From Natronosalvus halobius (GTDB lineage: Archaea; Halobacteriota; Halobacteria; Halobacteriales; Natrialbaceae), in NCBI RefSeq assembly GCF_024138145.1, contig NZ_CP099997.1, forward strand, positions 868,001 to 932,000: 64,000 nucleotides of DNA, written 5' to 3'. This document shows, piece after piece, positions 8,855-61,450 of this stretch. The translations under genes and the position numbers were made by a program. The number at the start of each line of letters is the position of its first letter. Position 1 is the first letter of the stretch. The notes beneath the pieces are model-generated. The model made no database searches. It had not been told where the DNA came from and was given only the letters and a program-made list of their open reading frames with translations.

Positions 8855-9052
8855 CTGCCCTCCGTCGACTTCTTCGCGTAGTCGTGCACTCAATTCGAGT
8901 GGCGTGACTCGGGTTGCAAGCGGCGAGTGACGATTATCGGACACCGACGGCCGACACTGGCGTCCTGGATTGGCGGAGCGCGGATGCGTGAACATTCGGT
9001 GTAGATAGTGTAGATACTCCGTCTCGAGCATCGCCAGTGGTACCCCGTCTGA

Positions 9053-9113
9053 GTCCCGTCAGTCTGTCCCGCCTCAAGTCCCGTCAGTCTGTCCCGCCTC
9101 AAGTCCCGTCAGT
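9053..9113. repeat. 25-nt direct repeat, two full copies and a partial third
   Basis: The unit begins gtcccgtcagtctgtcccgc and occupies 9053-9077 and 9078-9102 without mismatch; a partial copy (gtcccgtcagt) follows at 9103-9113. Intergenic. Confidence 0.9.
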
Positions 9114-19620: not shown

Positions 19621-19676
19621 TATCTCCCTCGGGGTATCTCCCTCGGGGCATCTCCCTCGGGGCATCTCCCTCGACG
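19621..19676. repeat. 14-nt tandem repeat, four copies
   Basis: Unit tatctccctcgggg/catctccctcgggg, four adjacent copies at 19621, 19635, 19649 and 19663, the last ending cgacg. It lies in the divergent promoter region between nreA and the antiporter gene, upstream of the antiporter TATA-like box. Confidence 0.92.
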
Positions 19677-44228: not shown

Positions 44229-44543
44229 ATGTCCGTGCCGTACCGTTCGTTCAGCCATTCGTTCGACCGCTCGTTCGAGCATTCGTTCAGCTATTCGTTC
44301 GACCGCTCGTTCGAGCATTCGTTCAGCTATTCGTTCGAGCACGTCCCCGCCACCATCCCCGGCCCACCGGAACTCGAGATTGCTCTCTTCGTCCTGGTCG
44401 CGATGGTCGTTATTCCGGCGATCATGCTCGGCATCGTTCTGGTGATCGTTCGCCGACGAGCCCCGGGACTCGAGGAGATTCAGGCGTCGATGGACGCCGA
44501 ATCAGACCACTCCGAGACCGACGCGCCCGCCGACCGGGAGTAG
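44229..44543 (+). CDS. Small single-pass membrane protein with repetitive N terminus
   Basis: 104 aa starting MSVPYRSFSHSFDRSFEHSF; an ATG at 44205 would add 8 residues. Residues about 8-38 are a 12-residue repeat (FDRSFEHSFSYS, two copies and more) encoded by a 36-nt DNA repeat. Then PGPPELEIALFVLVAMVVIP and a continuous membrane helix to VIVRRRAP, followed by a short acidic tail (LEEIQASMDAESDHSETDAP). The PGPPELEIALFVLV segment resembles the TatA/small translocase opening but no amphipathic helix follows. The repeat could also be upstream DNA if an internal non-ATG start is used. Confidence 0.55.
   Translation: MSVPYRSFSHSFDRSFEHSFSYSFDRSFEHSFSYSFEHVPATIPGPPELEIALFVLVAMVVIPAIMLGIVLVIVRRRAPGLEEIQASMDAESDHSETDAPADRE
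44257..44341 (+). repeat. 36-nt tandem repeat, two full copies and a partial third
   Basis: Unit begins attcgttcgaccgctcgttc and repeats exactly at 44257-44292 and 44293-44328, then continues attcgttcgagca. It is built from shorter ttcg-type units. In frame with the small membrane protein it encodes 12 residues per unit. Confidence 0.92.
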
Positions 44544-49446: not shown

Positions 49447-50088
49447 CTATTGCTGGCCATAGGACTCGAACTTCGCGAGCACCGTCTCCAGCTGTTCGTC
49501 GGAGAGTCGCTGAGGCTCGAGGCCGGCCGAGCGCGCCTCCAGATAAATCCGGGCGAGGCTCTCGACGTGAGCCGTGTTCTCGAGCGCCGTCTCGAGGTCC
49601 GGTGCGGTGACAACCAGACCGTGGTTTTCGATGAGGCTCGCGGTGGCGTCGGCCTCGCGCATCGCGGTGACGATGTTCTCGGCCAGCGCGTCGGTGCCGT
49701 AGGGGGCGTACTCGGCGACCGGCACTCGCTTGCCGACGGCGACGATCATGTAGTGGATCGGCGGCAGGGGTTCGTCGGCGATCGCCAGCGTCGTCGACCA
49801 CGGCGAGTGCGTGTGGACGATGGCGCCCACATCCTCGCGGCGGTAGATGGCGCTGTGCATCGGCACCTCGCTACTGGGTTTCATCGCCCCGTCGCGGTGC
49901 TCGCCGTCGACCCCGACGACCGGTACGTCGTCGACGTCGAACGCGTCGTAGGGGACGCCAGTCGGCGTGATCGCGAAGACGTCGCCGTCGCGGACGCTCA
50001 GATTTCCGGTTCGGCCGGGGGTCAGCGATGCGAGGTCGCTCGCACGCTCGACTACCTGCTCGCGCTGGGTTTCGAGGAGTACAGTCAT
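49447..50088 (-). CDS. Class II aldolase/adducin-family protein
   Basis: 213 aa. Zinc-dependent aldolase fold of the fuculose-phosphate type: [36 protein letters not shown] (Glu74), VHTHSPWST (His92, His94) and LIENHGLVV (His156) give the metal ligands and catalytic Glu. Splits sugar 1-phosphates to DHAP plus an aldehyde. Its start overlaps the HAD gene stop by 4 nt, so the pair is translationally coupled; the substrate may be a deoxy-sugar phosphate (inference). Confidence 0.9.
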
Positions 50089-50819
50089 AGTATCAGGTCC
50101 GTTAGGTCGCCGAAGTGATCTATCCTGTGGTCGGGGATGCGATCATCCCCCGATTGATCATCGACTCCCGAGAGATCAGGGTCGTCCGGCTCCTCGCCCG
50201 CAGCGTCGAACAACACCGTCTCGAGGCCGATCGCGTTTCCGCCGACGACGTCCGAGGGGATCGAATCGCCGACCATGACTGCATCACTCGGGTGGCACTC
50301 GAGTCGCGCGAGCGGGTAGGTGAACATGACCGAGGCGGGTTTCTCCTGGCCGACCTCCTCTGAGGTCACGAGCAGGTCGATAGCGTCCGCAAGGTCCAAC
50401 CGCTCGATCTTACGCAGTTGAATCCGAGTAGTGAGGTTCGTGACGATTCCCACATCGATGCCGGCCTCGTGCACCGTCGAGAGAGTCTCCTGGACGCCCG
50501 AATGGAGCGACATCGCCTGGAGGTACCCCTCCCAGTAGGCGTCGCCCAGTGCCAGCGCGTCCGACGGTCGGGGCTCGCCCGTGTGGCGCTCGAGTGCACG
50601 CTTGAAGTACAGCAGACGGTCGTGAGACGCGGCGGTCCCCACGAGGTCGCGTTTCACGTCGCGGCGGCCGGTCTGGTAGAACGCTTCGAACTCCTCGGTG
50701 TCGAGGGCGTAGCCGCGCTCGAGGGCGGTCTCCCGAGCGGCGGCCTTGCCTGCCTCGTTACACGGTGCGTAGGGGTAGAGCGTGTCGTCGAAGTCGAAGA
50801 GGACGGCGTCGACGGTCAT
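50085..50819 (-). CDS. HAD-superfamily hydrolase
   Basis: 244 aa. Motif [14 protein letters not shown] (Asp9, Asp11), motif [21 protein letters not shown], Lys in [16 protein letters not shown] and motif [20 protein letters not shown] helical cap lies between motifs I and II. The C-terminal 30 residues are an acidic tail ([20 protein letters not shown]). Likely a phosphatase of a small phosphorylated metabolite. First gene of a two-gene unit with the class II aldolase. Confidence 0.88.
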
Positions 50820-50896
50820 AGGTGACCTGCTCGGTCATCGGTAAAACACGTGTCGGTCGAACCGAGTCGGCTCGGGGTCACGCTCGTGGGTACGTC

Positions 50897-51088
50897 GTCA
50901 CTCGAGTTGCTCGAGATATCCGCGTTATTCAAGTCACTCGAATTGCTCGAGATATCCGCGTTATTCAAGTCACTCGAATTGCTCGAGATATCCGCGTTAT
51001 TCAAGTCACTCGAATTGCTCGAGATATCCGCGTTATTCAAGTCACTCGAATTGCTCGAGATATCCGCGTTACTCGAGTCACTCGAGTC
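50897..51088. repeat. 36-bp tandem repeat, five copies plus a partial sixth
   Basis: Unit gtcactcgaattgctcgaga-tatccgcgttattcaa (shown in two pieces) at 50897, 50933, 50969, 51005 and 51041; the first has a g for a at one site and the last ends ttactcga. A short fragment follows to 51088. The unit contains the palindrome ctcgag. No spacer variation, so not CRISPR. It fills the divergence between the minus-strand HAD start (50819) and the ferritin-like stop (51104). Confidence 0.95.
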
Positions 51089-51103
51089 AGCACCGAACGC
51101 CGA

Positions 51104-51556
51104 TCAGTCGTTCGGAAACTCCTTCTGGAACCCGCGGAACTCCGTCCGGTGAGCCTCCTCGTCGGCCAGAATCGTCACGGCGACGTCCTCCGTGACCGGA
51201 TCGTTCGCCTCGCCCGCCGCCTCGAACAGCGATCGGTAGGTCTCGATGGCGTCCTCCTCCGCCTCCAGGACGCCCTCGATCACGGACTGGACATCGGTCG
51301 TGTCCTCAGGCGGCTGGAGGCTCGACTGGCGGGCCTCGAACTCCATCGAACCCGGCGGGGACTCGTCGAGTTGTTTCAGTCTGTTACCGAGCATCCGCGC
51401 GTGCTCGAGTTCCTCCTCCACGTCGGTCTCGAGACTCTCTTTGACCTCCTCGGCGTGGACGCCGTCCAGGACGATCGCGTTCGTCAGGTAGTTCATCACG
51501 GTCTCGAGTTCGTCGATGTACGCCTTCGTCAACAGGTCGGTGACTTCGTCTGCCAT
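51104..51556 (-). CDS. Ferritin-like domain protein
   Basis: 150 aa starting MADEVTDLLTKAYIDELETV. Four-helix bundle with a rubrerythrin-like pattern: DELETVMNYL, EEELEHARMLGNRLKQL, LEAEEDAIETYRSLFEAAGE and ILADEEAHRTEFRGFQKEF, which give the Glu and His ligands (ExxH twice) for a di-iron centre. May store iron or detoxify peroxide. Its downstream side abuts the 36-bp repeat. Divergent from the DapA-family gene. Confidence 0.88.
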   Translation of the reverse strand: MADEVTDLLTKAYIDELETVMNYLTNAIVLDGVHAEEVKESLETDVEEELEHARMLGNRLKQLDESPPGSMEFEARQSSLQPPEDTTDVQSVIEGVLEAEEDAIETYRSLFEAAGEANDPVTEDVAVTILADEEAHRTEFRGFQKEFPND

Positions 51557-53845: not shown

Positions 53846-53975
53846 TCGAGTAGCCTTCGAGGCGTTCTCCGGGCATTCTTCTGTCGTTCTCCAGTGGCCG
53901 TCGAGTAACCTTCGAGGCGTTCTCTCGGCGTTCTCGAGTGCCCTTTGAGTCGTTCTCGAGTAGCCCTCGAACCCC
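53846..53975. repeat. Imperfect repeats of tcgagtagccttcgaggcgt type
   Basis: Two 24-nt near-identical copies start at 53846 and 53901 (55 nt apart), with further degenerate ttctcgagt units to 53975. Lies between the acyl-CoA dehydrogenase stop and the HAD gene. Confidence 0.8.
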
Positions 53976-54680: not shown

Positions 54681-54917
54681 CTACCGACCCTGCATCCGCT
54701 TCGCGTACGCGAAGACGGCGAGTGCTGTGAGGACCCAGACGACGGCGCCGACCCGAATGGCGAACTCGGCTCGAGCGTTCCACGTCGGCAGGTCGACAGT
54801 CGTGGACGCGAGGGCGACGAGCGGAGCGCCGACCACGATCGTCGTGACGAACGTGACCTGCATCACCCAGCCGTAGTCGACGCCCTCCGGGGAACTCGTC
54901 TCGACGCGTTGAGGCAC
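54681..54917 (-). CDS. DUF5822-like small membrane protein
   Basis: 78 aa starting MPQRVETSSPEGVDYGWVMQ. Two membrane helices (about residues 18-38 and 53-72: VTFVTTIVVGAPLVALASTT and RVGAVVWVLTALAVFAYAKR). The SPEGVDYGWVMQVTFV opening matches a haloarchaeal family I recall as DUF5822. Function unknown. Confidence 0.8.
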   Translation of the reverse strand: MPQRVETSSPEGVDYGWVMQVTFVTTIVVGAPLVALASTTVDLPTWNARAEFAIRVGAVVWVLTALAVFAYAKRMQGR

Positions 54918-60914: not shown

Positions 60915-61450
60915 CACTCGGACCCGTGTTTCTCGTCTCGTTCGTTTCGCTCGTCTCGCCCGTCTCGTTCGTTTCGCTCGTCTCGCCCGTCTCGTTTGTC
61001 TCGTTTGTCTCGTTCGTCTCGCCCCTCTCCCTCGACCAGTTCGTACGCGTGCTCGCTCATCTCGTCCTCGGCGAATACGAACACCCGGCCGTCGACGACG
61101 TCGTGATCCGCCTCAACCCGAACGGAGTAGCCCTCGGTGGTCACGGTAACCCCGGGAAACAACTCCTCCTCGTCCGTCGACTCGAGCATGACTCGCCCGA
61201 CACCCGTCGCCTCGAGGATGTCCTCGTGGGTGTTTCGATCGTTGACGTAGGTCATCACGCCCTCGACGCCGTCGGGACCGGTGACCAGGACGTGGACTTC
61301 CTTTCCCGGCGGGGACCGAACGCTTCCCTCCTTCGGTTCCGGAACGCCGTTGTAGAACGTCTCCCGTCCGTCGAGGTAGCGAACGACGACGCCGCCGTCG
61401 ACCAGTTCGACCGGCAGCGTGCTCGGGGCGACGTTGCTTCGCGTGCTCAT
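60914..61450 (-). CDS. DUF5796-like protein with repetitive charged tail
   Basis: 178 aa starting MSTRSNVAPSTLPVELVDGG. Beta-rich core of 130 residues: VVVRYLDGRETFYNGVPEPK, GKEVHVLVTGPDGVEGVMTY, FPGVTVTTEGYSVRVEADHD and GRVFVFAEDEMSEHAYELVE. The last 40 residues are Arg/Asp/Glu repeats (GRDERNERD) encoded by a 27-nt DNA repeat. I recall the core as DUF5796, haloarchaeal, function unknown. Translationally coupled to DUF7508. Confidence 0.8.
   Translation of the reverse strand: MSTRSNVAPSTLPVELVDGGVVVRYLDGRETFYNGVPEPKEGSVRSPPGKEVHVLVTGPDGVEGVMTYVNDRNTHEDILEATGVGRVMLESTDEEELFPGVTVTTEGYSVRVEADHDVVDGRVFVFAEDEMSEHAYELVEGEGRDERDKRDKRDGRDERNERDGRDERNERDEKHGSE
60934..61023. repeat. 27-nt tandem repeat built of 9-nt units, in the DUF5796-like gene 3' end
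   Basis: A 27-nt unit beginning cgtctcgttcgtttcgctcg is exact at 60934-60960 and 60961-60987, followed by 9-nt variants (cgtctcgtt, tgtctcgtt) to 61023. All units are multiples of three in the coding frame on the minus strand. Confidence 0.9.

Follow-up and report, generated by a model that had tools for sequence, protein, structure and literature searches.

Five nearly identical units of 36 bp follow one another between two genes of Natronosalvus halobius, and the question that such a locus raises is whether the repeats do something for the genes beside them or are simply the trace of a recent duplication. We have approached it from the window (the whole stretch of 64,000 nucleotides that was analysed) and from a collection of 61 genomes. 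The array is genuine and ordinary in kind. We consider it very probable that it is a young, neutral and lineage-specific minisatellite without a function required by its neighbours, most likely the product of neutral slippage or unequal exchange rather than a conserved regulatory element.

Anatomy and setting of the array

Tandem Repeats Finder places the array at 50897-51085 (period 36, 5.2 copies, 98% match, score 357) and gives it the top score of all tandem arrays in the window. By repeat finding and alignment of the units, five of them were delimited (50901..51080, no strand), each composed of four 9-bp sub-units that in the inner copies read, in order, CTCGAATTG, CTCGAGATA, TCCGCGTTA and TTCAAGTCA. 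Units 2-4 are identical, with one substitution in unit 1 and two in unit 5 with respect to them, so that the preliminary description of five near-exact repeats holds; these are head-to-tail, near-identical units of at least 7 bp, as in minisatellites or VNTRs. One first-order Markov shuffle per sampled stretch from eight genomes yielded no array at all (period at least 7, at least 2.4 copies, score at least 80), and the array is therefore beyond chance.

Each inner unit contains one exact CTCGAG, the palindrome to which the same description had drawn attention, as well as a second palindrome, GATATC. The unit can be read as four decayed 9-mers of the form CTCGAG plus three bases. When compared with itself at a lag of 9, the inner unit matches at 20 of 36 positions (P 0.004 with respect to shuffles, lags 1-18 considered), and a seed reconstructed from both edge units at 24 of 36 (P 0.0001). 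The importance given earlier to 36 being a multiple of twelve was thus misplaced, the inner period being 9 and not 12 (20/36 vs. 6/36 matches). At the right edge of the array there is an extra 9-mer, CTCGAGTCA (51081..51089, no strand), represented by CTCGAGTCG in the close congener G007, which is probably a remnant of the older 9-bp repeat.

All four inner junctions show the same three differences from CTCGAG, and the intact motif is retained at both outer edges of the array (on the left in unit 1, on the right in unit 5); besides these junction and edge differences, no others were found among the five copies over 180 bp. If CTCGAG is taken as the older form, the junction differences would be three G:C to A:T transitions. 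As the inner junctions share these changes and the outer edges lack them, the simplest history would be duplication, then mutation at the junction and then expansion. To judge from this anatomy, a short intergenic run of CTCGAG-N3 9-mers would have been tandemly duplicated over 36 bp, the three transitions would next have arisen at the duplication junction, and the mutated unit would then have multiplied to five copies, through slippage in replication or unequal recombination between chromosome copies. The palindromic CTCGAG folds computationally into single-strand hairpins, which might have helped the polymerase to slip. This mechanism of birth would fit the slippage that one study describes for Pyrococcus PolB and PolD in vitro when the template carries a hairpin and short direct repeats, although the inhibition of this slippage by PCNA, described there too, counts against it (PMC4134008). 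Similarly, the repeat-mediated deletions that an excerpt on Haloquadratum describes fit recombination between short repeats, yet they are a different case (PMC3119063).

The genes around the array are all on the minus strand: a ferritin-like gene (51104..51556; Pfam PF00210, E 3.6e-23), a HAD-family hydrolase gene (50085..50819; PF13419, E 7.2e-23) and a class II aldolase gene (49447..50088; PF00596, E 2.6e-49) that overlaps the HAD gene at its end. In the direction of transcription the array follows the first and precedes the HAD-aldolase pair; its place upstream of this pair had been noticed from the start. It fills ca. two thirds of the 284 bp gap between ferritin-like and HAD genes, with its right edge 14 bp from the ferritin-like stop codon and the first unit 81 bp from the HAD start codon. 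The presumed core promoter of the HAD gene (50820..50870, minus strand, with GTTTTACCGATG ca. 26 bp before the ATG) lies outside the array. Near the HAD start, also on the minus strand, there is a TATA-like GTTTTACC within a stretch that is similar in N. halobius, G007 and a second congener, G002, and that we presume to be the HAD promoter. A Pfam scan of the genes called between 44.6 and 59.2 kb (15 of 16, without that of 78 aa at 54681-54917) found no initiator or partition protein, such as would accompany the iterons of a replication origin or partition system.

The same site in related genomes

Allowing up to three mismatches, the 36-bp unit was found in only one of the 61 genomes, that of N. 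halobius itself, and there at a single place; the whole array used as a DNA query also found one place in this genome. The search for further copies that the preliminary description had proposed therefore gave none. The exact unit had no match in viral contigs, nor the array in plasmids at E 1e-3, in collections that may omit records from this same genome. Partial matches to the 1487-bp region were detected in 49 of the 61 genomes, and judging by the match coordinates in these 49 the ferritin-like and HAD genes are side by side only in N. halobius, G007 and G002. In G007 (DNA ca. 90% identical; HAD 90%, ferritin 91%) the gap is reduced to 97 bp and the array is absent, with CTCGAGTCGCTCGAGTCG kept, matching the right edge of the array. 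In G002 (HAD 87%, ferritin 93%) the array is also absent, and the gap of ca. 950 bp contains VIT-family and DUF211 genes (L038:5600-6500), which suggests an iron-handling group gained or lost at this site. The presence of the array is thus lineage-specific, as in a minisatellite or VNTR. Because the edge-unit seed finds no alignment over its full length in G007, the ancestral state of the site is unsure.

If the copies were as old as the split from G007, nine private changes would be expected among them (assuming 5% substitution per lineage). They show none, and the expansion would therefore be younger than about one third of the time since that split, a bound that would be weaker if gene conversion keeps the copies alike, as it could. 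With no substitution private to a copy beyond the edge differences, and with two close congeners devoid of the array, the recent expansion suggested in the preliminary description is well supported. The selection that it offered as the alternative is not, since the array is not conserved whereas the adjoining presumed promoter is. Variation in copy number among strains would be the direct mark of slippage, and our collection contains one genome per species.

Other explanations for the array

The position of the array just beyond the presumed core promoter, and the two palindromes in the unit, would suit an upstream regulatory array in which a protein binds each unit and the copy number tunes the HAD-aldolase promoter. 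However, G007 and G002 have the HAD gene and a similar presumed promoter without any array, which argues against a needed regulatory role, and a second unit is absent from the rest of the genome at up to three mismatches; we regard this explanation as improbable. Also improbable, and slightly more so, is that the ferritin transcript has, in its 3' region, an RNA structure that would affect the stability of this transcript or the formation of its 3' end. The array lies 14 bp past the ferritin stop, its minus-strand RNA folds at -86.6 kcal/mol (shuffle mean -62.7; plus strand -71.7; z-scores -5.45 for minus-strand RNA and -2.91 for plus-strand DNA), and in the junction hairpin the three inner substitutions preserve 6/6 pairs when the minus strand is folded and 5/6 when the plus strand is. 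Such substitutions might point to an RNA structure under selection, which would count against neutrality. As proof of such selection we have rejected them, as random sets of three transitions retain 6/6 pairs in 23-29%. Besides, tandem palindromes fold well trivially, the minus strand of the array has no T-run, the sole terminator-like site found (50853-50865) is outside the array, Rfam gave no match at gathering scores over 50700-51300, and the array is not conserved.

Two further explanations are much less probable. Tandem arrays are error-prone in assemblies, but the differences between edge and inner units are orderly, and we give very little credit to an artefact. Hardly any remains for a coding repeat belonging to a small protein with NNADISSNSSDL repeats encoded by the minus-strand ORF 50816-51040, which is open and has a stop overlapping the HAD start codon. 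Its codon score is negative (-0.16 per codon, vs. +0.22 to +0.38 in three neighbouring genes), for which we rejected it; its earliest start codon is a TTG within the repeat, and two congeners lack the array. The earlier statement that all six frames stay open through the array was incorrect. Only the three plus-strand frames and one on the minus strand are open, the other two containing 11 and 4 stops, and the circular unit has three stops, both strands together. Open frames are cheap here in any case, since 27% of the 36-mers sampled from the window are stop-free in every frame when circularised. In the neutral minisatellite that we favour, the neighbours, to judge from the congeners whose presumed promoter is intact without the array, would need nothing from it.

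Tandem arrays in the genome and in other systems

The excess of tandem arrays in this genome with respect to its close congeners is, in our opinion, a more interesting point than the array itself. We sampled 464 kb of N. halobius (20 stretches, L066-L085, amounting to 400 kb, plus the window) and, for comparison, parts of G007 (400 kb), G002 and G003 (200 kb each), G001 and G016 (120 kb each), G027 (100 kb) and G060 (60 kb), calling genes by a simple codon-usage script and using the array threshold given above for the shuffles. With the window left out, 20 arrays lie in the 78 kb of intergenic DNA of the 20 stretches, against 12 in 224 kb for four congeners (G007 5, G002 1, G003 4, G001 2), a density ratio of 4.8 (P 1e-5; P values are guides only here, because the stretches are partly dependent on one another and no sequencing method is stated for the assemblies). 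The ratio goes from 2.1 (score 50, any copy number) to 7.1 (score 100, 2.5 copies) at other cut-offs and is 12.9 for near-perfect arrays with at least 95% match (9 vs. 2 in the four congeners). Other genera gave 0 (G016), 1 (G027) and 0 (G060) intergenic arrays. Within called genes the excess is weaker (17 in 373 kb, window included, vs. 10 in 696 kb, P 0.004, again as a guide). The window alone has nine arrays at a score of at least 80 (six intergenic, three in called genes), against one for G007 and two for G002, in 100 kb of each that include the syntenic region. The intervals corresponding to these nine sites are shorter at seven in G007 (that at 9052 is equal and that at 19622 longer) and at eight in G002, where the exception, longer, is the site of the 36-bp array.

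With the window included, 26 of the 43 arrays in the N. halobius sample are intergenic, with periods from 14 to 50 bp and units unlike by eye. A good share of the arrays in this genome may be nested, with short units inside longer ones, and nine of the 26 show an inner sub-period (P <0.05, no correction for 26 tests). CTCGAG is present in seven of the 26; with respect to shuffled counts the motif is over-represented in this genome (4.6 times) as well as in the four congeners (4.6 to 5.9 times), so that it does not by itself explain the excess. Within the window, 53883-53970 is a nested array (units of 33 bp, sub-period of 11 bp), and 44246-44338 has nested 36-bp units (period 12 is also reported by Tandem Repeats Finder) in a called ORF without Pfam match. 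The coding array at 60932 is not private, having a counterpart at the same place and with the same 27-bp period in G002. The array at 9052-9113 (25-bp period) and one at L056:11966-12057 in G007 occupy the same intergenic interval by alignment offsets and are unlike by eye, as though certain intervals acted as hot spots for arrays. A 357-bp repeat (2.9 copies) at L068:7538-8570 is inside a called gene, perhaps coding for a protein with long repeats.

It is possible, although we hold the idea only tentatively and think it more doubtful than not, that the array reflects a burst of tandem duplication across the genome, peculiar to this lineage, in which a changed step of replication or repair would make or keep arrays several times faster than in the congeners. 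As far as four repair domains are concerned, we rejected the loss of a repair gene as its cause. NucS and MutL domains were each found in seven of eight genomes of the genus (both misses are in G006, 66% complete) and MutS and FEN1-type XPG_I domains in all eight; as N. halobius has all four, the excess is not explained by the simple loss of one of these genes. A repair protein may still be weakened despite the presence of its domain. The NucS match spans one TGA in N. halobius, G002 and G004, which may be just the gene end, and a search for the Rad50 hook gave no genome of the eight over the cut-off and is uninformative, as a Haloferax control was also below it.

The practical meaning of the array is that of a possible strain-typing marker and of a caution against taking promoter-side repeats as regulation. 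If the raised density were confirmed genome-wide, the genus would be a natural comparison for the control of repeat birth in archaea. Like CRISPR repeats, the unit has a length within the usual range, but the units abut without unique spacers and none recurs elsewhere in the genome within three mismatches, so that the preliminary description was correct in excluding a CRISPR array. The closest comparison is with the prokaryotic minisatellites or "satellites" surveyed by Subirana and Messeguer (2019), whose birth is attributed, in the portion of the text available, to anomalies of DNA replication and whose table of selected species includes Natrialba magadii and Halorubrum lacusprofundi (PMC6749651). 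Among the matches listed in our literature search, outside which most subscription journals lie, no other paper dealt with haloarchaeal intergenic minisatellites. Like those satellites, as far as that portion describes them, the arrays found here are short, scattered, tandem and mostly unique (PMC6749651). Unlike the short-repeat satellites of Halobacteria, which according to the same portion appear mainly coding with lengths multiple of three (PMC6749651), they are for the most part intergenic (26/43), and the lengths of only 9 of those 26 are divisible by three; there being no enrichment, the significance earlier attached to 36 as a multiple of three also falls. The constant-size tandem repeats of Bacillus, from what the available part of their description indicates, are similar in that a single genome carries arrays of unlike sequence, and different in that their size is constant, while here the periods vary (PMC8161180).
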